From Lichenibacterium minor (lineage in GTDB: Bacteria; Pseudomonadota; Alphaproteobacteria; Rhizobiales; Beijerinckiaceae): 64,000 nt of DNA. Both the position numbers and the translations under genes were made by a program. The stretch lies in assembly GCF_004137685.1 (NCBI RefSeq), contig NZ_QYBB01000011.1:62001-126000 (forward strand), written 5' to 3'. The notes beneath the pieces are model-generated. The model was not told the origin of the DNA. It searched no databases and was given only the letters and a program-made list of their open reading frames with translations. This document shows, piece by piece, positions 21,579 to 62,279 of the stretch (position 1 is the first letter of the stretch; every line of letters starts with the position of its first letter).

Positions 21579-22724
21579 TCAGTCGCCGAGGCCGCGGTCC
21601 CAGCCCGCCTTGGTTTCGGCGACGACGTCGTCGAGCCGCCGCGCCGCGATGGCGGCCCGCAGCCCCGCCATCAGGCTTTGGTAGTAGCTGAGGTTGACCC
21701 AGGTCAGCAGCATCATGCCGAGGATCTCGTCCGACTTCACCAGGTGGTGCAGGTAGGCGCGCGAATAGTCCCGCGCCGCCGGGCAATCGGACGCCTCGTC
21801 GAGCGGCCGGGGGTCGGCGGCGTGGCGGGCGTTGCGCAGGTTGACCTTGCCGAAGCGCGTGTAGGCGAGGCCGTGTCGGCCCGCGCGGGTCGGCATCACG
21901 CAGTCGAACATGTCGACGCCGCGCCGCACGGCTTCCACGAGGTCGTCCGGGGTGCCGACGCCCATCAGGTAGCGCGGCTTGTCGGCCGGCAGGTGCGGCT
22001 CGACGGTCTCGATGGCGGCGAGCATGTCGGCCTGCGGCTCGCCGACCGCGAGGCCCCCGATGGCGATGCCGCCGAACGGCATGGCGGCGAGCTGCTTCGC
22101 GCTTTCGACGCGCAGCGCCGCCACCGTGCCGCCCTGCACGATCCCGAAGCAGGCGCGTCCGGGCTTGGCCTCGAAGGCTTTCAGGGACCGCTCGGCCCAG
22201 CGCAGCGACAGCAGCATGGCACGCTCGACCTCGGCGTCGGGCGCGGGCAGGCGCACGCATTCGTCGAGCTGCATCTGGATATCGGAACCGAGCAGCGCCT
22301 GGATCTCCATCGAGCGCTCCGGCGTCAGGGCGTGCTTCGAGCCGTCGATGTGGGATTGAAAGGTGACGCCGGTCTCGTCGAGCTTGCGCAGCTTCGCGAG
22401 GGACATGACCTGGAAGCCACCGGAATCGGTCAGCATCGGCCCGGACCAGGTGCTGAACCTGTGCAGCCCGCCGAGTTCGGCCACGCGTTCGGCGCCGGGC
22501 CGCACCATCAAGTGATAGGTGTTGCCGAGCACGATGTCGGCGCCGAGCTCCCGCACCTGGCCCATGTACATGGCCTTGACGGTGCCGGCGGTGCCGACCG
22601 GCATGAAGGCCGGCGTGCGGATCGTGCCGCGGCCGGTGTGGATCAGGCCCGTGCGGGCCGCGCCGTCCTGTCCCAGGTGCTCGTACCTGAATGGGAGGTC
22701 CTGGCGGGTGTCGGCGGTCATCAT
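21579..22724 (-). CDS. tgt: tRNA-guanine transglycosylase with a degenerate zinc site
   Basis: 381 residues. It exchanges guanine-34 for the queuine precursor preQ1 in tRNA. The catalytic residues are intact: D100 in TDSGGFQ and the nucleophile D274 in [13 protein letters not shown]. At the structural zinc site, however, only one of the four ligands remains. By spacing (+2, +5, +31) the positions of the three cysteines and the histidine are S312, C314, A317 and V343. The surrounding sequence ([17 protein letters not shown]) aligns without gaps, so this is substitution, not frameshift. Start ATG overlaps the queA stop by four bases (ATGA). It closes the block of cyclophilin, queA and tgt genes. 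Confidence 0.93.
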
Positions 22725-28558: not shown

Positions 28559-29557
28559 TCACGGCGTCCCGAGGCCGGCCGCGTCGGTCACGGCATGCGT
28601 CCAGGCACCCTGCGGCTCCTTCGTGATGACCGGGTCGGAGCCGGACGACAGCAGCACCGCGACGGTCCGGGCGTAGGCGGCGGGGTCGAGCACGCCGGCG
28701 GAATCCTTCGTCAGCTTGTTGATGTCGTCCATCATGTGCTTCTGGTGCTCCTCGGTCTGGGCACCCGAGGAATCGTTGTCGAGGACGATCTTCACGGCCT
28801 CGTCCGGGTGGGCCTGCGCGTCCTGCCAGCCCCGCATGGAGGCCTTGACGAAGCGGGCCATGCGCTCGGCGAAGGCGGGATCCTTCAGCTTGGGTTCGAG
28901 GGCGTAGAGCCCGTCCTCCAGCGTGGCTTCGCCCTGATCGGAATAGTTGAAGACCACGAGCTCCGCGGGCTTCATCCCGGCCTCGATCAGCTGCCAATAT
29001 TCGTTGTAGGTCATGGTCGAGATGCAGGCGGCCTGCTTCTGGAGCAGCGGATCGACGTTGAATCCCTGCTTCAGCACGGTGACGCCGGGCGGGCCGTCGG
29101 TCTTGACGCCGAGCTTCGCCATCCAGGCCAGGAACGGGTATTCGTTGCCGGCGAACCAGACGCCGAGCGTGTGGCCGGGGAAGTCGGACGGTGCCTTCAC
29201 GCCGGCATCGGCCCGGCAGGTCAGCTCCAGCCCCGACCGTTTGAACGGCTGGGCGATGTTGACCACCGGGGAGCCTTTCTCGCGCGTCGCCAGCGCGGAT
29301 GGCATCCAGTCCACCACGACGTCGGCGCCCCCGCCGGCCAGCACCTGCTCGGGGTTCACGTCCGGGCCGCCCGGCTTGATGGTGACGTCGAGGCCGGCAT
29401 CCTTGTAGAAGCCCTTGTCCTTCGCGACGAAATAGCCGGCGAACTGCGCGTCGGCGACCCACTTGAGCTGCAGCGTCACCGGGTCGGCGGCGCGCGCCGC
29501 CCCCGTGCCGGACATGGCGGCGCCGAGCGCCGCGAGGCCGAGAATCATCCGCTTCAT
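28559..29557 (-). CDS. ABC transporter substrate-binding protein (NMT1/ThiY-like), pyrimidine cluster
   Basis: 332 residues with a signal peptide (MKRMILGLAALGAAMSGTGAARA). The mature protein opens VTLQLKWVADAQFAGYFVAKDKGFYKDAGLDVTI, the hallmark of the NMT1/THI5-like periplasmic binding proteins that bind pyrimidine or related heterocycles, sulphonates or riboflavin. It ends the operon of hydrolases, ATPase and two permeases, 14 bases after the last permease. The context points to uptake of uracil, thymine or their reduced forms; this is inference. An earlier in-frame ATG (29575) is possible but has no ribosome-binding site. Confidence 0.9.
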   Translation of the reverse strand: MKRMILGLAALGAAMSGTGAARAADPVTLQLKWVADAQFAGYFVAKDKGFYKDAGLDVTIKPGGPDVNPEQVLAGGGADVVVDWMPSALATREKGSPVVNIAQPFKRSGLELTCRADAGVKAPSDFPGHTLGVWFAGNEYPFLAWMAKLGVKTDGPPGVTVLKQGFNVDPLLQKQAACISTMTYNEYWQLIEAGMKPAELVVFNYSDQGEATLEDGLYALEPKLKDPAFAERMARFVKASMRGWQDAQAHPDEAVKIVLDNDSSGAQTEEHQKHMMDDINKLTKDSAGVLDPAAYARTVAVLLSSGSDPVITKEPQGAWTHAVTDAAGLGTP

Positions 29558-29571
29558 GGTCCGTTCCCCCG

Positions 29572-30438
29572 TCATGATCGGCGCCCGCGGAATGACGGGT
29601 GCCAGAAGGTCGCGCGCCGCTCGACGAGGGCCACGAGCCCGTAGAGCAGCGTTCCCGACAGCGCCGCGACCGTGATCGTGGCCCACACGGTGTCGATGTT
29701 CATGCGGCCGACCTCCGCGTTGATGCGGAAGCCCATGCCGACGATCGGCGTGCCGAAGAACTCGGCCACGACCGCGCCGATCAGCGCCAGCGTGGTGCAC
29801 AGCTTCAAGCCGTTGAACACGAAGGGCAGCGCGGCCGGCAGCCGCATCTTGCGCAGGGCCATGCCGTAAGGCGCCGCCCAGGTGCTCATCAGGTCGCGGT
29901 CGAGCGCGGTGGTGGCGCGCAGGCCCGCATCGCAGTTCACCAGCATGGGGAAGAACGTCATGGCGGCCACGACGGCGGCCTTGGACGGCCAGTCGAAGCC
30001 GAACCACATGACCATGATGGGGGCCACGCCGACGACGGGCAGCGCGGACGCGAAGGTGCCGAGCGGCAGGAGCCCGCGCTGCAGGAACGGAACGCGGTCG
30101 ATCGCGAGCGCCACGAGGGCGCCGCCGCCGCATCCGGCGATGTAGCCCGCGGCGAGTCCCTTCATGGTCTGGGCGAAGTCGGCGGCCAGCAGGCCGGGCG
30201 ATGCGGCGATGCGGGCCGCGATGGCGCTGGGCGGCGGAAGGATCACGGCGGGCACGCCGAGCCCGCGCACGATCGCTTCCCACCAGAACAGGAGGGTCGC
30301 GCCGAAGATCGCCGGGACGGCGACCGCGGCCGCGCGGCCTGCCCAGCCGCGGCGCGGGCCGCGCCGCACGATGAACTCGACCAGCGCCCAGGCGCCGAGC
30401 CACAGGGCCGCGCAGCCGCACCATTGCGGCGCCGTCAT
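29572..30438 (-). CDS. ABC transporter permease (SsuC/ThiX-like), second of pair
   Basis: 288 residues, with about seven hydrophobic segments. The coupling region around AAPYGMALRKMRLPAALPFVFNGLKL is the EAA-type loop that docks on the ATPase. Members of this BPD_transp_1 family transport sulphonates, thiamine precursors and nucleobase-like compounds. The start ATG overlaps the stop of the first permease by four bases (ATGA). The gene is followed after 14 bases by the binding protein. Confidence 0.9.
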   Translation of the reverse strand: MTAPQWCGCAALWLGAWALVEFIVRRGPRRGWAGRAAAVAVPAIFGATLLFWWEAIVRGLGVPAVILPPPSAIAARIAASPGLLAADFAQTMKGLAAGYIAGCGGGALVALAIDRVPFLQRGLLPLGTFASALPVVGVAPIMVMWFGFDWPSKAAVVAAMTFFPMLVNCDAGLRATTALDRDLMSTWAAPYGMALRKMRLPAALPFVFNGLKLCTTLALIGAVVAEFFGTPIVGMGFRINAEVGRMNIDTVWATITVAALSGTLLYGLVALVERRATFWHPSFRGRRS

Positions 30439-31376
30439 CGCCCCGCCCCCATGCGGCGCAGCACGGCCGCCTCGACCGCCGCCACGAGCCCGACCAGCGC
30501 GGCGCCGCAGGCGGAGGCGACGACCAGCGCGGCCCAGATCTGCACGGTCTGCCCATAATAGGAGCCGGCGAGGAGCCGCGCGCCGAGGCCGCCGTCCTCG
30601 CTCTTCGTCACCTCCGCCACCACGGTGCCGACGAGGCTCGCCGCGACGCCGACCTTCAGGCTCGCGAACAGGAACGGCAGGCTGGCCGGCAGCCGCAGGA
30701 CGCGCAGGGCCTGCCAGCGCGAAGCCGAATAGGTCCGCAGCAGGTCGACGTGCGACGGCTCGGGCGAGCGCAGGCCCTTGGCCATGCCGACCGCGACGGG
30801 GAAGAAGGACAGGTAGGCGGCGATGGCCGCCTTCGGCAACAGCCCGGTGACGGACACCTGGGCGAGGATCACCACGATCATCGGCGCCAGCGCCACGATC
30901 GGCACCGCCTGGCTGGCGACGATCCACGGCATCAGGCCGCGGTCGAGGCTCGGCACATGCACGACCAGAAGGCTCAGCGCGAAGCCGACCGCGGCGCCGA
31001 GCAGGAAGCCCAGCGCCGTCGCCTGCAGCGTGACGGCGGCGTGAAACGCCAGCGAACGCTTCGACGTCGGGGACACGTCGAGGACCGAATGCGCGATCTC
31101 GGCGGCGACCTGGTGCGGTGCCGGCAGGCGGGGGTGGCCCTGCGCCCAGGTGCCGGCCACGAAGGCCCGCCACCCGGCATCCGCCGTGCCGGCCCGTTCG
31201 AAGGCTTGCCGCTGCCCGTCGGCGTTCATCGCCACCGCCGCCGCGTACCAGGCGGCGACCAGCACCAGCACCACCGTCAGCACCGGGGCGGCGCGGCCGG
31301 CGAGCGCGCGCAGGCCGGCGCCGAGGCGGCCCCGGGGCGCGGGGCGGCGGAGCGGGAGCGCGGCGTCAGTCGACAT
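30435..31376 (-). CDS. ABC transporter permease (SsuC/ThiX-like), first of pair
   Basis: 313 residues. An N-terminal membrane helix is followed by an extracytoplasmic stretch (about 55-100) and a BPD_transp_1 core with the EAA-type loop TYSASRWQALRVLRLPASLPFLFASLKVG. Similar to the second permease, with which it should form a heterodimer. Its first 11 bases overlap the end of the ATPase gene and its stop overlaps the next permease, so this section is fully translationally coupled. Confidence 0.9.
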   Translation of the reverse strand: MSTDAALPLRRPAPRGRLGAGLRALAGRAAPVLTVVLVLVAAWYAAAVAMNADGQRQAFERAGTADAGWRAFVAGTWAQGHPRLPAPHQVAAEIAHSVLDVSPTSKRSLAFHAAVTLQATALGFLLGAAVGFALSLLVVHVPSLDRGLMPWIVASQAVPIVALAPMIVVILAQVSVTGLLPKAAIAAYLSFFPVAVGMAKGLRSPEPSHVDLLRTYSASRWQALRVLRLPASLPFLFASLKVGVAASLVGTVVAEVTKSEDGGLGARLLAGSYYGQTVQIWAALVVASACGAALVGLVAAVEAAVLRRMGAGR

Positions 31377-32187
31377 AGGCGTGCCCGGCGCGCAGCCCTT
31401 CGCGGACGCGGTGGGCGACGCCGAGGAACGCGGGCGTTTCGCGGATATCGAGCGTGCGGTCCGGCGGGAAGCCGCACTCGACGACGTCGTGGATGCGGCC
31501 GGGCCGGGGCGACATGACGACGATGCGGGTCGACAGGAACACCGCTTCGGGGATCGAATGCGTGACGAACACCACCGTCTTGCCGGTGCGGTGCCACAGG
31601 CGCAGGAGCTGGGCGTTCAGCTTGTCCCGCACGATCTCGTCGAGCGCGCCGAAGGGCTCGTCCATCAGGAGGAGGTCGGGGTCGAACGACAGGGCGCGGG
31701 CGATGGAGGCGCGCTGCTGCATGCCGCCCGACAATTGCCACGGGAACTTGCCCCCGAACCCGCCGAGGTCCACGAGGTCGAGCCCGGCCGCGACGCGCCG
31801 CCGCCGCTCCTCCTTCGGGAAACCCATGATCTCCAGCGGCAGCGCGACGTTGCGGGCCACGCTGCGCCACGGGTACAGGGCGGGCGCCTGGAACACGTAG
31901 CCATAGGAGCGCTTCAGCCGCGCTTCGCGCGGGCCCATGCCCTTCACCGCGATCGAGCCGGACGTCGCGGATTCCAGGTCGGCGATGACGCGCAGCAGGG
32001 TGGTCTTGCCGCAGCCCGAAGGGCCGATCAGCGACACGAACTCGCCGGGGCGGATCGCGAGGTCGACGTGGGACAGGGCGTGGACCGGCCCGTCCCCCGT
32101 GTCGAAGACGAGCGACAGGTCGCGGGCCTCGACGGCGAACGGCGACGCCGGCGCCCCGGCGGGATGCGGGACCGCGGCGGCGCTCAT
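31366..32187 (-). CDS. ABC transporter ATP-binding protein (SsuB/ThiZ-like)
   Basis: 273 residues. Walker A GPSGCGKTT, Q-loop YVFQAPALYPWRSV, signature LSGGMQQRASIARA, Walker B LLLMDEPFGALD and switch His in VFVTHSIPEA are all present, as in the nitrate/sulphonate/taurine subfamily. The ATG overlaps the hydA stop by four bases (ATGA), tying the transporter to the dihydropyrimidinase. The 15 or so residues before the ABC domain are Ala/Pro-rich. Confidence 0.94.
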   Translation of the reverse strand: MSAAAVPHPAGAPASPFAVEARDLSLVFDTGDGPVHALSHVDLAIRPGEFVSLIGPSGCGKTTLLRVIADLESATSGSIAVKGMGPREARLKRSYGYVFQAPALYPWRSVARNVALPLEIMGFPKEERRRRVAAGLDLVDLGGFGGKFPWQLSGGMQQRASIARALSFDPDLLLMDEPFGALDEIVRDKLNAQLLRLWHRTGKTVVFVTHSIPEAVFLSTRIVVMSPRPGRIHDVVECGFPPDRTLDIRETPAFLGVAHRVREGLRAGHAYVD

Positions 32188-33614
32188 GGGCGAACGACGG
32201 CCCGCGGCGCCGCGAGGTCGCTCAGGCGGCGCGCCGCCCGCGCTTCGGGCGTGAAGGGCGCGCGGGCGACGAAGCGGCCCCGCCCCCCTTCGGCCTGGAC
32301 GCGCCCGTCGCGGACCACGACCTCGCCGCGCGACAGCACGGTGCGGGGCAGCCCCGTGCAGTGCAGGCCTTCGAAGACGTTGTAGTCGATGGCGGACACC
32401 TGCGTGGCGGCCGAAACGGTCTTCTGCGCCGCCGGGTCCCACACGACGACGTCGGCGTCCGCGCCGACCTCGAGCGAGCCCTTGCGCGGGTACAGGTTGA
32501 GGATGCGGGCGATGTTGGTGGAGGTGACGGCGACGAACTCCTCCGGCGTCAGACGCCCTTCGCCGACCCCGCGGGTCCACAGCACGGGCATGCGGTCCTC
32601 GAGGCCGCCGGTGCCGTTGGGGATCTTGGTGAAGTCCGAGCGGCCGAAGCGCTTCTGCTCGGTCGTGAAGGCGCAATGGTCGGTCGCCACGACCTGGAGC
32701 GAACCGGCACGCAGCCCGTTCCACAGGTCGTCCTGGTTGCGCTTGTCGCGGAAGGGCGGCGACATCACGCGGCGCGCGGCGTGGTCCCAATCGGGGTTGA
32801 GGTATTCCCCCTCGTCCAGCACCAGGTGCTGAATGAGCGGCTCGCCGTAGACACGCTGGCCGTTCGCCCGCGCCCGGCGGATCGCCTCGTGCGCTTCGAT
32901 CGACGAGGTGTGGACGACGTAGAGCGGCACGCCGGCCTGGTCGGCCAGCATGATGGCGCGGTTGGCGGCCTCGCCCTCGACGCGCGGGGGCCGCGAATAG
33001 CCGTGGCCTTCGGGGCCGGTGATGCCCTGGGCCAGGAGCTCCGCCTGCAGCGCCGCCACGACGTCGCCGTTCTCGGCGTGGACCAGCGGCATGGCGCCGA
33101 GCTCGGCGCAGCGGCGGAACGAGGCGAACATCTCCTCGTCGTTCACCATCAGGGCCCCCTTGTAGGCCATGAAGTGCTTGAACGTGGTGACGCCCCGGGC
33201 GACGACCTCCGCCATCTCGTCGCGGATCGCGGCGGACCAGCCGACGATGCACATGTGGTAGCTGTAGTCCGTGGCGGCGGTGGCGGAGCGCCGGTCCCAG
33301 TCGGCCCAGGCATCCATCAGCTTCTGCCCGTGCGACGGGATGCAGAAGTCGACCACCATGGTGGTGCCGCCCGCCAGCGCGGCGCGGGTGCCCGACGCGT
33401 AGTCGTCGGCCGTGGTGGTGCCCATGAAGGGCATCTCGAGGTGGGTGTGGGGGTCGATGCCGCCCGGCATCACGAGGCAACCCTCGGCGTCGACCGTGTC
33501 GTCGCCGCGCAGCCCCGGGCCCACGGCCGCGACCCGCCCGCCCTCGACCAGCACGTCGGCGGGGAAGCTCCGCGCCGCCGTCACCACCGTGCCGCCCCTT
33601 ATCACCGTCGACAT
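32184..33614 (-). CDS. hydA: Dihydropyrimidinase / hydantoinase
   Basis: 476 residues, amidohydrolase superfamily. It opens the ring of 5,6-dihydrouracil or dihydrothymine to the N-carbamoyl-beta-amino acid. The binuclear metal site is complete: H56 and H58 (DPHTHLEMP), carbamylated K152 (MAYKGAL), H179 (VHAENGD), H235 (VVHTSS) and D312 (ATDHC). The final NVFEGLHCTGLPRTVLSRGEVV block is typical of dihydropyrimidinases. GGGAG seven bases before the ATG supports the start. It lies 77 bases behind the amidohydrolase gene and is coupled to the transporter ATPase. Confidence 0.95.
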   Translation of the reverse strand: MSTVIRGGTVVTAARSFPADVLVEGGRVAAVGPGLRGDDTVDAEGCLVMPGGIDPHTHLEMPFMGTTTADDYASGTRAALAGGTTMVVDFCIPSHGQKLMDAWADWDRRSATAATDYSYHMCIVGWSAAIRDEMAEVVARGVTTFKHFMAYKGALMVNDEEMFASFRRCAELGAMPLVHAENGDVVAALQAELLAQGITGPEGHGYSRPPRVEGEAANRAIMLADQAGVPLYVVHTSSIEAHEAIRRARANGQRVYGEPLIQHLVLDEGEYLNPDWDHAARRVMSPPFRDKRNQDDLWNGLRAGSLQVVATDHCAFTTEQKRFGRSDFTKIPNGTGGLEDRMPVLWTRGVGEGRLTPEEFVAVTSTNIARILNLYPRKGSLEVGADADVVVWDPAAQKTVSAATQVSAIDYNVFEGLHCTGLPRTVLSRGEVVVRDGRVQAEGGRGRFVARAPFTPEARAARRLSDLAAPRAVVRP

Positions 33615-33691: not shown

Positions 33692-34939
33692 TCAGCCCAC
33701 GACTTCCGCCGTTTCCAGCACGGCGTGGAGCAGAACCTGGGTGCCGGCGCTCGCCCATTGTGGCGAGATTTCCTCGGATTCGTTGTGGCTCACGCCGCCC
33801 ACGCAGGGTGTGAAGATCATCGCCGTGGGGGCCACGCGGGCGATGTAGCAAGCGTCGTGCCCGGCGCCCGACACCATGTCGCGGTGGCTGAAGCCGCCCC
33901 GCTCCGCCGCGCGCCGCACCGCCCCGACGCAGGCCTCGTCGAAGGGCACGGGAGGATAGTTGAACACCTGCTTGACGTCGGCTTCGAGTTTCGCGGCCTC
34001 GCAGATCGCCGCGATGCCGGCGTGCAAGGCCGCGTCCATGGCGACCAGCACGGCCTCGTCCGGATGCCGGAACTCGCAGGTGAGGAACACCTCGCCCGGG
34101 ATGACGTTGCGCGATCCCGGATAGGGGGTGAGCATGCCGGTGGTCGCCACCGCCAGCGGCGGATGGTCGAGCCCGATGCGGTTGACGAGTTCGACCACGC
34201 GCGCGGCGCCCACCAGCGCGTCGCGGCGGCGCGGCATGGGCGTCGACCCGGCGTGGCTTTCGAACCCCTTGAGCGTCACCTCGTACCAGCGCTGCCCCTG
34301 GCCGTGGGTGACGACGCCGATGTCGATGCCCTCGTCCTCGAGGATGGGCCCCTGCTCGATGTGCAGCTCGAACATCGCGCGGATGTCGCGCCCACCGCAG
34401 GGCGCGTCGCCCTTGTAGCCGATGCGGGCGAGTTCGTCGCCGAGGCGGACGCCGTCGCGATCCTCGATCGCATAGGCTTCGTCCAGCGTGTAGGCGCCGG
34501 CGAACACGCCCGACGCCACCATGGCGGGGGCGAAGCGGGAGCCCTCCTCGTTGGTCCAGTTGGCGACCTCGATCGGGTGCCGCGTCCGCACGTTCAGGTC
34601 GTTCAAGGAGCGCAGCACTTCCAGGCCGGCCAGCACGCCGAGCACGCCGTCGTACTTGCCCCCGGTCGGCTGGGTGTCGAGGTGGCTGCCCATCATCACC
34701 GGCGGCAGGCCGCGCTCCGTGCCTTCCCGGCGCGCGAACATGTTGCCCATGGCGTCCACCGTCAGCGCCAGGCCGGCGGACGCGCACCAGCGGGCGAACA
34801 GGTCGCGGCCCTGCCGGTCGACGTCGGTGAGGGTGAGACGGTTGCAGCCGCCCTTCGCCGTGCCGCCGATCCGGCCCATCTCCATCAGGCTGTCCCACAG
34901 GCGCGCGCCATCGATGCGGAGGTTGGACAGATCTGGCAT
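33692..34939 (-). CDS. Zn-dependent amidohydrolase, beta-ureidopropionase / N-carbamoyl amino acid hydrolase type
   Basis: 415 residues, M20 peptidase-like family (HyuC/AllC/PydC). It would hydrolyse N-carbamoyl-beta-alanine to beta-alanine, CO2 and ammonia. Metal ligands are seen in GSHLDTQPTGGKYDGVLG, NEEGSRF, MFELHIEQGP and the C-terminal GGVSHNESEEI. The start is placed at ATG 34939 (MPDLSNLRIDGARLW), the conserved N terminus in related sequences; a GTG 11 codons upstream is possible. First gene of the hydrolase-transporter operon, divergent from the TetR regulator. Confidence 0.92.
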   Translation of the reverse strand: MPDLSNLRIDGARLWDSLMEMGRIGGTAKGGCNRLTLTDVDRQGRDLFARWCASAGLALTVDAMGNMFARREGTERGLPPVMMGSHLDTQPTGGKYDGVLGVLAGLEVLRSLNDLNVRTRHPIEVANWTNEEGSRFAPAMVASGVFAGAYTLDEAYAIEDRDGVRLGDELARIGYKGDAPCGGRDIRAMFELHIEQGPILEDEGIDIGVVTHGQGQRWYEVTLKGFESHAGSTPMPRRRDALVGAARVVELVNRIGLDHPPLAVATTGMLTPYPGSRNVIPGEVFLTCEFRHPDEAVLVAMDAALHAGIAAICEAAKLEADVKQVFNYPPVPFDEACVGAVRRAAERGGFSHRDMVSGAGHDACYIARVAPTAMIFTPCVGGVSHNESEEISPQWASAGTQVLLHAVLETAEVVG

Positions 34940-35001
34940 GAAGGGGCTCGCGACGGTTCGCGCCATCGACACGCGGCGCTTCGACGCGAGTGAACGTCAG
35001 T

Positions 35002-35017
35002 TTTTCCGATCGGTCAA
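35002..35017. promoter_or_regulatory. RutR-like operator in the hydrolase/TetR intergenic region
   Basis: A 16-base site with perfect palindromic centre CCGATCGG and right half CGGTCAA. It agrees with the known RutR consensus TTGACCA-NN-TGGTCAA at 10 of 14 defined positions. It lies eight bases before the TetR start and about 63 bases before the divergent amidohydrolase gene. A better copy occurs at 40358-40373. Confidence 0.55.
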
Positions 35018-35024
35018 ACGCCCC

Positions 35025-35666
35025 ATGTCGTCACGGAACGCCAGCCCGGAGCGCCGGCCCGCGGCCCGCGCGGAGGTCGAAGACGCCATCCTGCGCGCCG
35101 CCGAGGCCGAGTTCGCCGAGAAGGGCTACGACGGCGCCACCACGGCCGCCATCGCGGCGCGGGCCGGCCTGCCCAAGGCCAACCTGCACTATTACGTCGC
35201 CACCAAGGAGGCGCTGTACCGGCGCGTCATCGGCGGCGTGCTCGACGCGTGGCTGGCCGAAGCGCGCAGCTTCGACGAGAACGGCCCGGCGGCGGAAGCG
35301 CTGACGCGCTACATCGAGGGCAAGATGGACCTGGCGCGCGCCCGGCCGCTCGGTTCGCGCATCTTCGCCCGCGAGGTGATGAGCGGCGCCCCCGCGGTGC
35401 GCGACTTCCTCGAGACCACCCTGGCGGAATGGGTGAAGGCGCGCGGCGCCGTCGTGGAAGGCTGGATCGCTTCCGGGCAGGTCCGGCCGCTCGACCCCAA
35501 GGTGCTGTTCTTCACCATCTGGGCCGTCACACAGCACTACGCCGACTTCGGCGCGCAGATCGCGGCGCTGAACGGCGGCGCGCCGCTCGACGACGACGCC
35601 TTCGCGGCGGCGAAGCGGCAGGTCGTCGAGACGATCCTGCGCGGCATCGGCCCCGACCGCGCGTGA
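35025..35666 (+). CDS. TetR family regulator, RutR-like
   Basis: 213 residues. The N-terminal helix-turn-helix DNA-binding domain (about 20-70: ILRAAEAEFAEKGYDGATTAAIAARAGLPKANLHYY) is followed by a ligand-binding domain of the RutR/YcdC type (FAREVMSGAPAVRDFLETTLAEWV, VLFFTIWAVTQHYADF). E. coli RutR binds uracil and thymine and controls pyrimidine use. The position, divergent from the hydrolase operon and with matching palindromes before both catabolic operons, makes it the likely pyrimidine-responsive regulator. No clear ribosome-binding site precedes the ATG. Confidence 0.88.
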   Translation: MSSRNASPERRPAARAEVEDAILRAAEAEFAEKGYDGATTAAIAARAGLPKANLHYYVATKEALYRRVIGGVLDAWLAEARSFDENGPAAEALTRYIEGKMDLARARPLGSRIFAREVMSGAPAVRDFLETTLAEWVKARGAVVEGWIASGQVRPLDPKVLFFTIWAVTQHYADFGAQIAALNGGAPLDDDAFAAAKRQVVETILRGIGPDRA

Positions 35667-35745
35667 CGGCACCCCGAATCTCGCCTAGCCTGGGCAGAGC
35701 CGTCCCCGGGCTTCGGTCGCCGGAGCCGCGTGCGAGGAGATCACC

Positions 35746-35955
35746 ATGCGATTGAGTGCGCGCAATCAGTTGAAGGGCCGGATCGTCGAGGTCACGAAGG
35801 GCCAGACGACCGCCCACGTCCGCATCGACATCGGCGGCGGCGTGATCGTCACGGCTTCGGTGACCAACGAGGCGGTCGACGAGCTCGGCCTCAGGGTCGG
35901 CGAAGCGGCCCACGCCGTCATCAAGGCGTCGGACGTCATGGTGGCCGTGGACTGA
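35746..35955 (+). CDS. TOBE-domain (molbindin-like) protein
   Basis: 69 residues, essentially one TOBE/Mop domain: MRLSARNQLKGRIVEVTKGQ, AHVRIDIGGGVIVTASVT and GLRVGEAAHAVIKASDVMVAVD. Such small proteins bind molybdate or tungstate oxyanions as oligomers. GGAGAT precedes the ATG. One base separates its stop from the next gene. A molybdate role is from family knowledge; no molybdenum transporter or enzyme is encoded in this window. Confidence 0.9.
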   Translation: MRLSARNQLKGRIVEVTKGQTTAHVRIDIGGGVIVTASVTNEAVDELGLRVGEAAHAVIKASDVMVAVD

Positions 35956-35956
35956 G

Positions 35957-36484
35957 ATGCGCCTCGGCACCCCTTCCCTCTTCGCCGTCCTGGCCGTCGC
36001 CGCCCCGCTCGCCGCGTCCTCGCCCGGGACCGCCCTGGCGCAGGACGCGAGCGGCTGCGCCAAGTTCCGATGGCCGGTCGACCGCGAGCGCTCCGCCTTC
36101 GGCACGCCCGGCCTGCGCACGGTCGAGGCGGGCAAGCCCCTGCCCGGCATCATGGACCCCGCGATCGTGGCGCTGCAGCCGGTGGCCGACGTGAAGTTCG
36201 AGCGGCCGCCGAGCCGCAAGCCCAAGGACGGCACCTTCGGGGCCGTGGTGAAGACGCCGCCGCTCGCGGTGGGCGGCATCTACCAGATCACGACGTCCGA
36301 CGACGTCTGGATCGACGTCGTCCAGGACGGGCGCGAGCTCAAGCCCAAGGCCGTCACGGGCGAACGGGACTGCCCGAACGTGCGCAAGAGCGTGCGCTTC
36401 GACTTCGCGGCCGGGCAGGCGACCGTCGAGATCAGCGGTTCGGCGGCGAACAGCGTCAAAGTGGACTTCCTGCCGCCGCCGTGA
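35957..36484 (+). CDS. Secreted protein of unknown function, 175 residues
   Basis: An N-terminal signal peptide ends near ALA-Q (residue 28). The mature part has a likely beta-sandwich pattern: YQITTSDDVWIDVVQDGREL, then a Cys-containing loop (GERDCPNVRKS) and paired strands FDFAAGQATVEISGSAANSVKVDFLP. Two mature cysteines, near residues 34 and 138, could form a disulphide. The domain resembles periplasmic or extracellular proteins with a ligand-binding beta fold, but I cannot name the family. It follows the TOBE gene with a one-base gap. Confidence 0.75.
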   Translation: MRLGTPSLFAVLAVAAPLAASSPGTALAQDASGCAKFRWPVDRERSAFGTPGLRTVEAGKPLPGIMDPAIVALQPVADVKFERPPSRKPKDGTFGAVVKTPPLAVGGIYQITTSDDVWIDVVQDGRELKPKAVTGERDCPNVRKSVRFDFAAGQATVEISGSAANSVKVDFLPPP

Positions 36485-36540
36485 GGGCGGAACGCGCGAC
36501 GGCGCCCGACGTTCTCCCCGTCCCAGACGAGGAGGACCGC

Positions 36541-36717
36541 ATGAGCGACCACAAGCAGGGCCAAGCCGGCAGCGGAAACCACACGCCCCAGAAGGGCGAG
36601 CAGCCCCACGGCAAGGCCGACAAGCATGTCGACACCGGCGAACACGCCAAGAAGACCGCCAAGGTCCACCACGACACGGTGCCGGACGCCAAGGGCACGG
36701 CCAAATATCCGGATTGA
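36541..36717 (+). CDS. Small hydrophilic His/Lys/Gly-rich protein, 58 residues
   Basis: A strong GAGGAGG lies seven bases before the ATG. The product (MSDHKQGQAGSGNHTPQKGE at its start, ending TVPDAKGTAKYPD) has no hydrophobic core, and is rich in His, Lys, Gly and Asp, so it is probably disordered. Such short polar proteins are often stress-related in alphaproteobacteria; that is only analogy. It is 56 bases behind the secreted protein gene and may be co-transcribed. Confidence 0.65.
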   Translation: MSDHKQGQAGSGNHTPQKGEQPHGKADKHVDTGEHAKKTAKVHHDTVPDAKGTAKYPD

Positions 36718-36834
36718 CGTCGGCGATCGAAGGGCTGGGCCGCAGGGGAGCGCGGTTCGCCGCGCGTGCGGCGCGGCGCGGCGAACGCGGATTGGGCCGG
36801 CAGGAGCCGGGGCGCGGGCCAGGGGGAGCAGGAC

Positions 36835-37578
36835 ATGGCTGAACTCGTCGGCACGATCGCCTGGGTCACGGGCGCGGGCAGCGGCATCGGGGAAGCATCC
36901 GCCCTGGCGCTCGCCGGGGCGGGCGCGACGCTGGTGCTGACCGGACGCCGTGCCGAGCCCCTCGACGCCGTCGCGGCCAGGATCACGGCGGCCGGGGGGA
37001 CGGCCCTGGCGCTGCCGGGCGACCTGACGCGGCCCGAAACGGCGGGCGAGATCGTCGCCGAAACGGTGCGCCGCTTCGGGCGGCTCGATATCCTGGTGAA
37101 CAACGCCGGGCTGAACATCGCGGCGCGCGCGTGGCGCGACCTGACGCCGGGCAGCATCGACACGGTTCTGGGCGGCAACCTGTCCGCCGCCTTCTACTGC
37201 TCCGCCGCCGCGCTCCCGCCCATGCGGCGGCAGCGCGGCGGCGTGTTGATCCACACGGCATCCTGGGCGGGGAAATACATCTCGCCCGTGAGCGGGCCGG
37301 CCTACACGGCGGCCAAGCACGCCGTCGTGGCGATGAGCCAGAGCATCAACATGGAAGAATACCGGGACGGCATCCGCTCGACGGCGGTGCTGCCGGCCGA
37401 GGTCGCGACGCCGATCCTCGACCGGCGCCCGGTGCCGCCCAACGCCGACGAGCGCGCCGCCATGCTGCAACCCGAGGACCTCGGCGCCCTGGTGCTGTTC
37501 ATCGCCACCCGGCCGCCGGGCGTGTGCCTCAACGAGGTGACGATCAGCCCGACGATGAATCGCATGTACGGGACGTGA
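36835..37578 (+). CDS. Short-chain dehydrogenase/reductase
   Basis: 247 residues, classical SDR. TGAGSGIG (nucleotide binding), NNAG, the catalytic Ser in HTASWAGKY and YTAAK are present. The C terminus VCLNEVTISPTMNRMYGT resembles YdfG-like NADP-dependent 3-hydroxyacid dehydrogenases. Start ATG 36835 follows GGGGGAG. It lies between the two pyrimidine catabolic operons and is convergent with preA. A role in reducing malonic semialdehyde formed from beta-alanine is an attractive but unproven idea. Confidence 0.85.
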   Translation: MAELVGTIAWVTGAGSGIGEASALALAGAGATLVLTGRRAEPLDAVAARITAAGGTALALPGDLTRPETAGEIVAETVRRFGRLDILVNNAGLNIAARAWRDLTPGSIDTVLGGNLSAAFYCSAAALPPMRRQRGGVLIHTASWAGKYISPVSGPAYTAAKHAVVAMSQSINMEEYRDGIRSTAVLPAEVATPILDRRPVPPNADERAAMLQPEDLGALVLFIATRPPGVCLNEVTISPTMNRMYGT

Positions 37579-37587
37579 CCCCGGCCT

Positions 37588-37611
37588 CTTCCCCCGCCGT
37601 CGCGGGGGAAG
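37588..37611. repeat. GC-rich hairpin between convergent SDR and preA genes
   Basis: Perfect ten-base arms (37588-37597 and 37602-37611) enclose a CGTC loop. It is placed between two convergent stops, but there is no T run on either side. It may be a weak terminator or one copy of a dispersed intergenic palindrome. Confidence 0.7.
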
Positions 37612-37638
37612 GCGACATCCTGCCCGGTCCCGACCGGG

Positions 37639-38952
37639 CTATTCCGCCGCGTTCCGCACCGCCGCGGGGTTGTTGGGGTGGGTCGTCCAGTTGGCGTAGG
37701 GCCGATCGTAATCCATCCCGGTCCGGGGATCTGCGCCCGCCGTGCGGTGCTCCAGCGTGATGCAGTTCTCGACCGGGCAGATCTCGACGCACAGGTTGCA
37801 GCCCACGCAGTCCTCGTCCTTGACCACGAACCTGCGGCGGCCGTCCACCGTCGCCGTGATGGCCTGGTGCGAGGTGTCCTCGCAGGCGATGTGGCATCGC
37901 CCGCAGGAGATGCACAGGTCCTGGTCGATGCGCGCCTTGGCGACGTAGTTGAGGTCGAGGAACTGCCAATCGGTGACGTTGGGCACCGCCATGCCGCGGA
38001 AGTCCTCGATGCCGCGGTAGCCCTTGGCGTCCATCCAGGTGGACAGCCCCGACACCATCTCCTCCACGACCTTGAACCCATAGGTCATCGCGGCCGTGCA
38101 GACCTGCACGGTGCCGGCGCCGAGGGCGATGAACTCGGCGGCGTCGCGCCAGGTGGTGATGCCGCCGATGGCGGAGATCGGCATGCCGCGCGTCGCGGGG
38201 TCGCGGGCGATCTCGCTCGTCATCGACAGCGCGATGGGCTTCACCGCCGGCCCGCAATAGCCGCCGTGCGTGCCCTTGCCGCCGACGTGGGGCGACGGCG
38301 CCATGCGGTCGAGGTCGACCGCCACGATGGAATTGATCGTGTTGATGAGCGACACGGCGTCGGCACCGCCCCGCTTCGCCGCGCGCGCCGGCTGGCGGAT
38401 GTCGGTGATGTTGGGCGTCAGCTTGACGATCACCGGCATGCGGGTGAACGCCTTGCACCAGCGCGCCACCATCTCGATGTATTCGGGCACCTGCCCCACC
38501 GCCGAGCCCATGCCGCGCTCGCTCATGCCGTGCGGGCAACCGAAGTTCAGCTCCACCCCGTCGCAGCCCGTCGCCTCCACGCGCGGCAGGATGCGGCGCC
38601 AGCTGTCCTCGTCGCAGGGCACCATGACGGAGGCCACCAGCGCCCGGTCCGGATGGAGCTTCTTCACCTCGGCCATCTCGCGCAGGTTCACCTCCAGCGG
38701 CCGGTCGGTGATCAGCTCGATGTTGTTGAAGCCCATCAGCCGCCGGTCGGGGCCGTGGATGGCGCCGTAGCGCGGGCCCGACACGTTGACGACGGGAGGG
38801 CCCTCCTCGCCCAGCGTCTTCCACACCACCCCGCCCCAGCCCGCCCGGAAGGCGCGCAGCACGTTGGTCTTGCGGTCGGTGGGCGGCGCGGAAGCGAGCC
38901 AGAACGGGTTCGGCGAACGGATGCCGAGGAAGTCGCTGCGAAGGTCGGCCAT
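37639..38952 (-). CDS. preA: NAD-dependent dihydropyrimidine dehydrogenase subunit PreA
   Basis: 437 residues. An FMN-binding TIM barrel of the dihydroorotate dehydrogenase type (about 1-320) contains GVELNFGCPHGMSERGMGSAVGQ, VKLTPNITDI and AIGGITTWRDAAEFI. A C-terminal ferredoxin domain binds two 4Fe-4S clusters, CISCGRCHIAC and CVGCNLCVEICP. With PreT it reduces uracil and thymine to the dihydro forms, the first step of the reductive pathway. One base separates it from preT. Confidence 0.96.
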   Translation of the reverse strand: MADLRSDFLGIRSPNPFWLASAPPTDRKTNVLRAFRAGWGGVVWKTLGEEGPPVVNVSGPRYGAIHGPDRRLMGFNNIELITDRPLEVNLREMAEVKKLHPDRALVASVMVPCDEDSWRRILPRVEATGCDGVELNFGCPHGMSERGMGSAVGQVPEYIEMVARWCKAFTRMPVIVKLTPNITDIRQPARAAKRGGADAVSLINTINSIVAVDLDRMAPSPHVGGKGTHGGYCGPAVKPIALSMTSEIARDPATRGMPISAIGGITTWRDAAEFIALGAGTVQVCTAAMTYGFKVVEEMVSGLSTWMDAKGYRGIEDFRGMAVPNVTDWQFLDLNYVAKARIDQDLCISCGRCHIACEDTSHQAITATVDGRRRFVVKDEDCVGCNLCVEICPVENCITLEHRTAGADPRTGMDYDRPYANWTTHPNNPAAVRNAAE

Positions 38953-38953
38953 G

Positions 38954-40336
38954 TCAGGCGGCTCCAGGAAGGGCGGTGTCCTGCGCCCGCAGGTGCGCAT
39001 CGATGGCGAGGGCGGCGCGTTTGCCGTCCTCGACGGCGCTGACGGTGAGGTCGGGCCCGCCGGCCACGCAGTCGCCGCCCGCCCACACGCCGGGCAGCGT
39101 GGTGCGGCGGTCGCCGTCGACGCGGATGCGCCCGCCGTCGAGCGCCAGGGTGCCGCCGCCGAGCGCGACGCCGCCCAGCGCATCACCGACAAAGGTTTGG
39201 CCGATGGCGCAGAGCACGAGGTCGGCCGGCATCGCCACCTCCTCGGCCGCGCCGGAACCGGGAAGGCGATGGACGAAGCGCACGGCGGAAACGGCGCCAT
39301 CCCGGTCGTCGAAGCCCGTCGGCGTCATCCAGTGGCGGATCACCACGCCGTCCGTCTTCGCCAGGTCCTGCTCCCAGCGGCTGGCCTTCATGTCGGCCGC
39401 GCCGCGGCGGTAAGCGATCGTCACCTGTTCGGCGCCGAGGCGGCGCGCCTGCACGGCGGCGTCCACCGCCGTCATGCCGCCGCCGATCACCACGACGCGC
39501 CGCCCCACCGGGACGGCGGCCTTGTCCGGCGCCTGGCGCAGGCCCTCGATGAAGCCCAGGGCATCGACCACGTTGCGCCGCCCCCCCATGCCGTCGAGCG
39601 CGTTGACGCCGGCGAGCCCGAGTCCGAGGAACACGGCGTCGTGCCGGTCGCGCAGCGTCGCGAGATCGATGTCCCGCCCCAGGCGGAAGCCGGGCCGCAG
39701 GTCGATGCCGCCGATGCCGAGGATGAAGTCCACCTCGGCCTGGGCGAACCCGGCCGGCGTCTTATAGGCGGCGATGCCGTATTCGTTGAGGCCGCCGGGC
39801 TTGGGCCTGCCGTCGTAGAGCGTCACCGCGTGGCCGAGCATCGCGAGCCTGTGCGCCGCCGCGAGTCCCGACGGCCCGGCGCCCACCACCGCGACGCTGC
39901 GGCCCGACGACGGCGCGCGGGTGAAGGGATGCGTGCCGGCCTCCGCCGAGGCCGCCATCATGGCGTCGGTGGCGTGGCGCTGCAACGAGCCGATGCGCAC
40001 CGGCTTGCCTTCCGCGTGTTCGCGCACGCAGGCCTCCTCGCACAGCTGTTCCGTGGGGCAGACGCGGGCGCACATGCCGCCCATGATGTTCGCCGACAGG
40101 ATGGTGTCGGCGGCGCCGAGCGCGTTGTCCTTGGCGATCTGCCGGATGAAGAGCGGGATGTCGATGCCGGTCGGGCAGCTTCGAACGCAGGGCGCGTCGT
40201 AGCAGAAGTAGCAGCGCTCCGATTCGACGAAGGCCTCGTGGCGCGTCAGCGGCGGGGACAGGTCCGCGAAGTTGCGGGCATAATCATCGGCGGCGAGCCG
40301 CCCGCCCGCAACGCCGTCCGTGGTGATCGACGCCAT
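38954..40336 (-). CDS. preT: NAD-dependent dihydropyrimidine dehydrogenase subunit PreT
   Basis: 460 residues, related to the glutamate synthase small subunit. The N-terminal domain carries iron-sulphur cysteine clusters CYFCYDAPCVRSCP and CARVCPTEQLCEEAC. FAD- and NADH-binding Rossmann motifs are VAVVGAGPSGLAAAHRLA and RVVVIGGGMTAVDAAVQARRLG, and GVWAGGDCV closes the FAD site. It passes electrons from NADH to PreA. GAGAGGT before the ATG fits a ribosome-binding site. A RutR-like palindrome lies 21 bases upstream of the start. Confidence 0.95.
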   Translation of the reverse strand: MASITTDGVAGGRLAADDYARNFADLSPPLTRHEAFVESERCYFCYDAPCVRSCPTGIDIPLFIRQIAKDNALGAADTILSANIMGGMCARVCPTEQLCEEACVREHAEGKPVRIGSLQRHATDAMMAASAEAGTHPFTRAPSSGRSVAVVGAGPSGLAAAHRLAMLGHAVTLYDGRPKPGGLNEYGIAAYKTPAGFAQAEVDFILGIGGIDLRPGFRLGRDIDLATLRDRHDAVFLGLGLAGVNALDGMGGRRNVVDALGFIEGLRQAPDKAAVPVGRRVVVIGGGMTAVDAAVQARRLGAEQVTIAYRRGAADMKASRWEQDLAKTDGVVIRHWMTPTGFDDRDGAVSAVRFVHRLPGSGAAEEVAMPADLVLCAIGQTFVGDALGGVALGGGTLALDGGRIRVDGDRRTTLPGVWAGGDCVAGGPDLTVSAVEDGKRAALAIDAHLRAQDTALPGAA

Positions 40337-40357
40337 CCTGACCTCTCGGGATACGAC

Positions 40358-40373
40358 CTGACCGATTGGTCAA
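40358..40373. promoter_or_regulatory. RutR-like operator upstream of preT
   Basis: On the minus strand the 16 bases read TTGACCAATCGGTCAG and match the RutR consensus TTGACCA-NN-TGGTCAA at 12 of 14 defined positions. The core TGACC-GATT-GGTCA is an exact inverted repeat. It sits 21 bases before the preT ATG, where bound protein would block transcription, and shares the (C/T)GGTCAA half-site with 35002-35017. Confidence 0.7.
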
Positions 40374-40458
40374 GTGTCGGGCCGCGCGAGAGGGCTTGTC
40401 AAGGCGAAGAGATCGGCAGCACAAGACGCCGGAAGCAGCAACGGCCCAGGACTCAGGC

Positions 40459-61712: not shown

Positions 61713-62279
61713 ATGGACAACGAGATCAGCGAACAGATGGAGCACCGGGAACACGCCGAGCACGCGGCCCACAGCGGCGAGCCGCTGCTGCTGCGGGTTT
61801 CGGCGACGATCGCCATCCTGGCCGTGGTGGCGGCTTCCGTCGGCAGCCTCGAAACCATCGAAAGCGGCGCCGCCATCTCGAAGAAGAGCGAATCGGTGCT
61901 GGTCCAGAACAGGGCCACGGACCGCTGGGCCTTCTTCCAGGCGCAGAGCATCAAGAAGAACATGTACGACATCGCCAAGGCGGCGAACCCCGGGCAGGCG
62001 GACGCGTTCGACGCCAAGGCGCGGGGCTACGAGAAGGACGGGGACGTCACGCGCGAGAAGGCCGAGGAACTCGGCCGCGAAAGCGACGCCCTGCTCGAAG
62101 CCGGCGAGCGTCACGAGAAGCGCCACCATGTCCTCACGGTGGGCGTGACCCTGCTCCACGTCGGCATCGCGGTCGCGACGCTGTCGATCATCATGCGCGG
62201 CCGGCGCTGGCCCTGGTACGCCGCCATGGTGCTGGGCGTCGTCGGGACGCTCGTGGCTGCCGCCGCCTACGCGGTGTGA
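61713..62279 (+). CDS. DUF4337 family membrane protein
   Basis: 188 residues. A His/Glu-rich start (MDNEISEQMEHREHAEHAAH) leads to a membrane helix (about 27-46). A helical, charged region follows (48-135; KKSESVLVQNRATDRWAFFQAQSIKKNMYDIA). Two C-terminal helices (about 140-160 and 167-187) complete it. This arrangement matches DUF4337, of unknown function. It is divergent from pcm by 236 bases and convergent with the next gene, four bases apart. Confidence 0.85.
   Translation: MDNEISEQMEHREHAEHAAHSGEPLLLRVSATIAILAVVAASVGSLETIESGAAISKKSESVLVQNRATDRWAFFQAQSIKKNMYDIAKAANPGQADAFDAKARGYEKDGDVTREKAEELGRESDALLEAGERHEKRHHVLTVGVTLLHVGIAVATLSIIMRGRRWPWYAAMVLGVVGTLVAAAAYAV

Follow-up and report, generated by a model that had tools for sequence, protein, structure and literature searches.

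The window analysed here, 64,000 nucleotides of Lichenibacterium minor (positions 62,001 to 126,000 of contig NZ_QYBB01000011.1, assembly GCF_004137685.1), contains a gene set for reductive pyrimidine degradation (Pyd), the gene of a TetR-type regulator, and two palindromes that resemble operators of the regulator RutR. Judged by comparison with related genomes, this regulator is very probably a repressor of the PydR type that acts on both palindromes and thereby controls both catabolic operons as well as itself. The genes and predicted control elements are:

40397–40402, minus strand: TTGACA, probably the −35 element in the promoter of preT (predicted from CTTGACA in seven of seven aligned family genomes)
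40358–40373, no strand assigned: operator 1 (predicted), CTGACCGATTGGTCAA, 21 bp ahead of the start codon of preT, with a counterpart in seven of seven aligned family genomes
38954–40336, minus strand: preT, small subunit of dihydropyrimidine dehydrogenase (PF14691, PF07992; preT/preA pair in relatives)
37639–38952, minus strand: preA, large subunit of dihydropyrimidine dehydrogenase (PF01180 and PF14697; relatives 71–94% identical where found in loci L023–L102)
35025–35666, plus strand: TetR regulator of the PydR type, 213 amino acids, clade W (see below), paralogue of RutR (PF08362 at 155.8 bits, RutR structures, trees)
35002–35017, no strand assigned: operator 2 (predicted), TTTTCCGATCGGTCAA, between the divergently oriented TetR and amidohydrolase genes, with a degenerate left half
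33692–34939, minus strand: M20-family zinc amidohydrolase, probable beta-ureidopropionase (N-carbamoyl-beta-alanine amidohydrolase; PF01546, NF006769 at 669 bits)
32184–33614, minus strand: hydA, dihydropyrimidinase (TIGR02033 at 594.6 bits, cut-off 393.25; PF01979)
31366–32187, minus strand: ABC transporter ATP-binding protein (PF00005; same position in many relatives; predicted start codon)
30435–31376, minus strand: ABC transporter permease (PF00528)
29572–30438, minus strand: second ABC transporter permease (PF00528 at 67.5 bits; predicted start codon)
28559–29557, minus strand: ABC transporter substrate-binding protein, NMT1/THI5-like (PF09084; predicted start codon)

The Pyd set is thus split, with preT and preA on one side and the genes for the amidohydrolase, HydA and the ABC transporter on the other, and the TetR gene is divergent from the amidohydrolase gene. 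The gene calls for TetR, the amidohydrolase and preT are confirmed at the coordinates and strands listed. An earlier reading of this DNA is referred to below as the original prediction. The substrate of the amidohydrolase is derived from the cluster context, which makes the role as beta-ureidopropionase probable.

RutR of E. coli binds the consensus TTGACCA-NN-TGGTCAA. The 16-base palindrome before preT agrees with it at 12 of the 14 specified positions and the related palindrome between the divergent genes at 10 of 14, both as originally described. Within the 64-kb window alone the number of such palindromes is not significant: a scan allowing up to three mismatches, a limit outside which operator 2 falls, returned two matches (operator 1 and one at 21736), and at least two were reached in 11 of 100 shuffles. 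The tighter consensus YTGACCRNNYGGTCAR has a single exact match in the whole genome (5,916,175 bases), namely operator 1; when reversed as a control, it has none. The looser form TTGACCNNNNGGTCAA with up to two mismatches occurs at 211 places genome-wide as compared with 110 for its reversed control; operator 2 is therefore not special by score, and its weight comes from conservation. When exact palindrome matches were collected over eight genomes, 13 of 18 were found to precede preT or a gene of the RutR family (reversed control, 4). Exact palindromes away from Pyd genes are located at G037:C1:1455124, G013:C1:5384519, G010:C23:94989, G027:C34:90389 and G027 C57:182232; the one in G013 adjoins a probable MFS transporter gene and a GNAT-like gene (open reading frames read by eye).

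Conservation was followed in 40 genomes of the window's family, 11 of which, the window's own included, have a relative of preT at an E-value of 1e-60. A regulator of the window type was assigned by tree in G000, G013, G029 and G037 and by best match in G010, G027 and G031. In all seven of these genomes, preT as well as the regulator gene is preceded by a palindrome with at most two mismatches. In G013, the second genome of the genus, whose regulator is 83.8% identical to the window TetR over 204 residues, all 16 bases of operator 2 are identical and about 15 flanking bases are also unchanged, though the surrounding spacer has diverged. Two further genera (G029, G037) have perfect palindromes at the same position (TTGACCAATCGGTCAA and TTGACCAAATGGTCAA). 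The regulator gene is about 17 kb away from preT in G027 and on a separate contig in G010, where neither gene is near a contig end; in G031 the two genes lie on separate short contigs and may still be neighbours. Of the other four genomes with a preT relative, G019 and G020 encode a true RutR and show a variant form of the site before preT (TTGATC...), G038 has neither regulator nor site, and G014 is treated below.

The wider set comprises 81 loci (the window and L023–L102) that were chosen by a regulator or preT hit and is not a census; L097, a lone long branch, was excluded from its regulator counts. The original prediction had named missing conservation of the palindromes upstream of orthologous operons as the result that would speak against it. 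Instead, a palindrome with at most two mismatches is present within 450 bp upstream of preT in 40 of 45 loci, as compared with a background of about 0.04 such sites per 300 bp over all loci; the regulator gene is preceded by one in 50 of 75. In all seven aligned family genomes CTTGACA is found 21–24 bp ahead of the preT palindrome, and with this spacing operator 1 would cover the transcription start.

The window TetR contains PF08362 (155.8 bits, cut-off 25) and PF00440 (47.8 bits, cut-off 24), that is, a domain of the YcdC/RutR type, and is the sole PF08362 protein found in its genome. It matches the RutR structures 6z1b and 3loc with E-values of about 2e-41. Uracil is contacted in RutR by W77, Y97, W167, Q171 and Q179', and K52 is part of the DNA-binding helix, as described for these positions in PMC10891134; the alignment shows all six residues retained in the window TetR. 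The original prediction of a RutR-type regulator is borne out as regards family, with the correction that the protein is not an orthologue of RutR. The protein stays below the cut-offs of both NCBIfam RutR equivalogs (TIGR03613, 174.5 of 368 bits; NF011584, 155.4 of 230), for which the same search gave 385.5 and 463.6 bits with E. coli RutR and 248.1 (below the cut-off) and 231.1 bits (just over it) with the R-type protein of Ensifer locus L170. Three trees place it outside the clade of E. coli RutR, which has a support of 100/99; their root is open, so the sister order of clades is not fixed. We refer to the clade of the window TetR, the PydR type, as W and to that of RutR as R. Since W and R members occur together in many genomes, the window TetR is, on these trees, a paralogue of RutR and not its orthologue.

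The neighbours of the window TetR gene are Pyd genes and not a rut operon, and RutA–G had no match in the locus of the nearest kin (L023), the window itself not having been searched with them. As would befit a PydR-like regulator, the window gene is a RutR-like TetR gene beside the genes for dihydropyrimidine dehydrogenase and dihydropyrimidinase, and a RutR-type palindrome (operator 1) is present at the predicted dehydrogenase promoter. Other W members are found beside Pyd genes in further Alphaproteobacteria, including Thalassospira marina, and in Burkholderia multivorans, where the gene is next to preA and hydA. The regulator beside preA of Azospirillum lipoferum falls outside W into a neighbouring, weakly supported group. 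R members are likewise adjacent to Pyd genes in most loci examined and adjacent to rut genes in L077, L099 and L102.

Further members of the RutR family were seen outside these two clades or contexts. The regulators of L235, L237, L239, L243, L245, L248, L250, L252, L256 and L258 form a third clade; no Pyd or rut genes were found alongside them, and two are beside an aminotransferase gene. On a Pseudomonas aeruginosa plasmid, a RutR-type TetR gene (L262:6968-7618) is next to the glyoxylate genes gcl-hyi; its product resembles PA1504, which was suggested in a 2025 paper as regulator of such genes. The palindrome CTGTCCGATTGGACAG is located near the regulator gene of B. multivorans.

Protein and operator change together within clade W. 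A subclade of 10 loci from two families (eight of f44; L228 and L240 of f60) has the recognition helix PKSN(V/I)VYYF; support is 100/100 for the f44 rows in one tree and for the four rows sampled from both families in two others. Before the regulator gene of this subclade there is an altered half-site, exact GCACGATCGGTCAR in eight of 10 loci and a two-mismatch copy in L062 and L240. Seven f44 loci have GCACGATCGGTCAA and GCACGATCGGTCAG 23–24 bp apart, and L228 has one exact copy. The altered form is absent from the six canonical W loci examined, and conversely TTGACCNNNNGGTCAA with up to two mismatches is missing before the regulator gene in eight of the 10 subclade loci, the site of L062 and L240 passing this search too. 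Read from these sequences, the co-variation ties the protein to its operator more directly than gene neighbourhood does. In L054 and L056–L061, GCACGATCGGTCAR was noted in two direct copies 23–24 bp apart upstream of the altered-helix regulator.

We propose that a TetR dimer binds a 16-bp palindrome with the consensus YTGACCRNNYGGTCAR, one copy of which would be placed just downstream of the probable −35 element of the preTA promoter and the other, half-degenerate one between the TetR gene itself and the divergent operon for the amidohydrolase, HydA and the ABC transporter. When pyrimidine is absent, TetR would repress the two catabolic operons and hold down its own production. The RutR-type pocket may take up uracil, thymine or one of their reduced derivatives, and TetR would thereby be released, with the consequence that the steps of the reductive pathway would switch on together. 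Comparative data support this interpretation, of which repression of both operons and of the TetR gene itself was already put forward in the original prediction.

A number of observations weigh against it. Sigma-70 scans gave no promoter fitting either operator and did not call the TTGACA at 40397–40402. In G014, which belongs to the family, the site before preT is weak and a search at an E-value of 1e-8 found no member of the RutR family. In the wider set, five of 45 loci are without a preT site, and nine of 35 Pyd loci having a RutR-type regulator alone show no site before the regulator gene; five of the 18 exact palindromes in the eight genomes fall elsewhere. Operator 1 is also upstream of a divergent sugar-kinase gene, which it could serve instead, and the left half of operator 2 is poor (TTTTCC), with those 211 genome places scoring as well. 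Binding of the window TetR, repression and the nature of the inducer are what we infer from comparison.

The poor half-site, with its four mismatches in 14 positions and so many places of equal score, would fit a situation where only the preT site is genuine and operator 2 a decayed remnant; the regulator would then control preTA only, its own gene would be unregulated, and the amidohydrolase operon would be constitutive or otherwise controlled. We consider this unlikely because the 16 bases and their flanks have stayed unchanged in G013 within a diverged spacer, because intact palindromes occupy the same place in two genera, and because operators altered in one half are the usual form in one regulator subclade. 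Similar palindromes can be read by other families, and the sites might be served by another TetR-type or an unrelated regulator while the neighbouring TetR has a different target. Such an arrangement appears very improbable given that no second PF08362 protein was found in the genome, that the sites go with the regulator gene even where it is far from preT (G010, G027), and that recognition helix and operator vary in step. A mere chance origin of the palindromes, with which the shuffles of the window would be compatible, is hardly credible in view of the unique exact match in the genome and the conservation in all seven family genomes with this type of regulator. Control of both operons and of the regulator gene by the PydR-type TetR thus accounts best for the sites.

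In many relatives both cousins, W and R, are encoded. Within L023–L102, both are present in the same Pyd locus in 16 cases, with W first; two operators precede W in 15 of them and one operator in the remaining case. In L042, W has two operators and R follows about 10 kb further on. A second, named set consists of the best 80 of 564 relatives of a fusion protein described below, picked by likeness to it, and W and R were told apart in it by best match, not by tree. L168 (gene cut by a contig end) and the siteless L149 and L154 (no Pyd genes in reach) were left out. Among these best 80 of 564, W and R occur with Pyd genes in 32 loci, 30 of which have two operators (L150 has one, L138 none), spaced 29–34 bp and mostly 33–34 bp apart; R with Pyd genes has one operator in 44 of 45 assessable loci and none in L203. 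In the wider set, R alone has one operator in 25 of 35 loci, none in nine and two in one. Also among the best 80 of 564, both cousins were found in Rhodobacter ruber, Tabrizicola aquatica and six Mesorhizobium loci, and R alone in other Mesorhizobium as well as Ensifer, Rhizobium and Agrobacterium loci. Both samples are phylogenetically clustered, and the relation between operator number and regulators may reflect shared descent. A simple rule by which operator number equals regulator number is ruled out by three groups of loci: the seven f44 loci have W alone yet two altered sites, the window's family has W alone with one site before the regulator gene, and in six Mesorhizobium loci that encode both cousins, one gene is preceded by a pair of sites and the second by a single site.

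In genus g89 of family f51, W and R are joined in one open reading frame of 424–427 residues in four genomes:

L049:9055-10338, minus strand: W–R fusion, genome G187
L047:9101-10378, minus strand: W–R fusion, genome G158
L053:9168-10442, minus strand: W–R fusion, genome G089
L055:99-1376, plus strand: W–R fusion, genome G125

The fusion proteins are made up of two TetR_N and two TetR_C_3 stretches. For the one fusion placed in trees, the N-terminal half groups with W and the C-terminal half with R, and the alignment of all four shows the uracil-contact motifs kept in both halves. A fifth g89 genome (G212) has a copy that stops just past the linker, near a contig edge. One perfect palindrome precedes the fused gene in three of four loci, none being seen in the 98 bp of upstream sequence available for L055, and TTTACCATTTGATAAA, a three-mismatch form, is found before preT in three of three. 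No fusion was flagged among the named loci, that is, the best 80 of 564. Divergent from the fused gene is a gene for a class-III aminotransferase (PF00202) at L049:10505-11833 and L047:10544-11872, both on the plus strand, perhaps a beta-alanine:pyruvate aminotransferase; relatives of it occur in many related clusters.

These features of the fusion would fit a natural single-chain repressor. An engineered single-chain TetR exists; for natural TetR fusions nothing relevant was found in the literature, which is weak evidence because the search terms were poor. It is tempting to speculate, although we regard the idea as doubtful, that the alphaproteobacterial reductive pyrimidine regulon is in many cases run jointly by a PydR type and a true RutR, either as a hetero-repressor or by cooperative action on operators paired at a distance of about three helix turns. 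The fused protein of one genus would then be a naturally occurring single-chain TetR that has two pockets for uracil and acts on a single operator, and the window's genus would represent a reduced form that keeps only the PydR half. The cousin pair, and above all the natural fusion, lends itself readily to testing if repressors of the TetR family evolve into obligate heterodimers.

Several known systems resemble that of the window. By the title of the report on it (Hidese et al. 2012, J. Biochem. 152, 341-346; cited in PMC7332683), PydR of Pseudomonas putida is a RutR-like transcriptional regulator and acts as repressor of the gene for dihydropyrimidine dehydrogenase in the reductive pathway, and this role, likened here through that title alone, is the one proposed for the window TetR. 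RutR of E. coli (b1013) is 38.8% identical to the window TetR over 201 residues and shares its Pfam domains and uracil contacts, and its operator is described as an approximately 16-bp palindrome (PMC10891134); it differs in belonging to a separate clade and in its gene being located beside the rut operon rather than Pyd genes. RutR regulons were predicted in RegPrecise for 68 genomes of 13 proteobacterial groups, with 273 sites and 743 genes and with taxon-specific changes of the motif across those groups (PMC5343134); they are comparable to the present system as RutR regulon predictions, the comparison being made without their gene lists. In Sinorhizobium meliloti, the TetR gene SMc01819 (CycR) is followed by the adenylate cyclase gene cyaC (SMc01818) and the LysR gene SMc01817 (PMC10463352); that paper deals with CycR as partner to the adenylate cyclase and reports the target genes of CycR as unknown. 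Ensifer sp. L170:7992-14150 shows the same order: the RutR-type gene is followed by a gene for a 2Fe-2S-domain adenylate/guanylate cyclase and then by a LysR gene, and an amidohydrolase gene flanks the RutR-type gene on the opposite side. By this likeness in gene order, CycR is probably an R-type (true RutR) cousin of the window system, and pyrimidine breakdown is predicted as its target.

Coupling of a RutR-type regulator to the reductive pathway, as put forward in the original prediction, is found in 66 of the 74 regulator-bearing loci of L023–L102, which hold HydA or PreA (rut genes, three; neither, five; no census). This common linkage to Pyd genes, together with PydR being in print, rules out that the coupling is unusual. 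The earlier inference was sound yet, as far as the title of the PydR report goes, describes a known kind of system. Our analysis contributes the placement of the window regulator in its own clade beside RutR and a precise, predicted operator set for the reductive uracil pathway.

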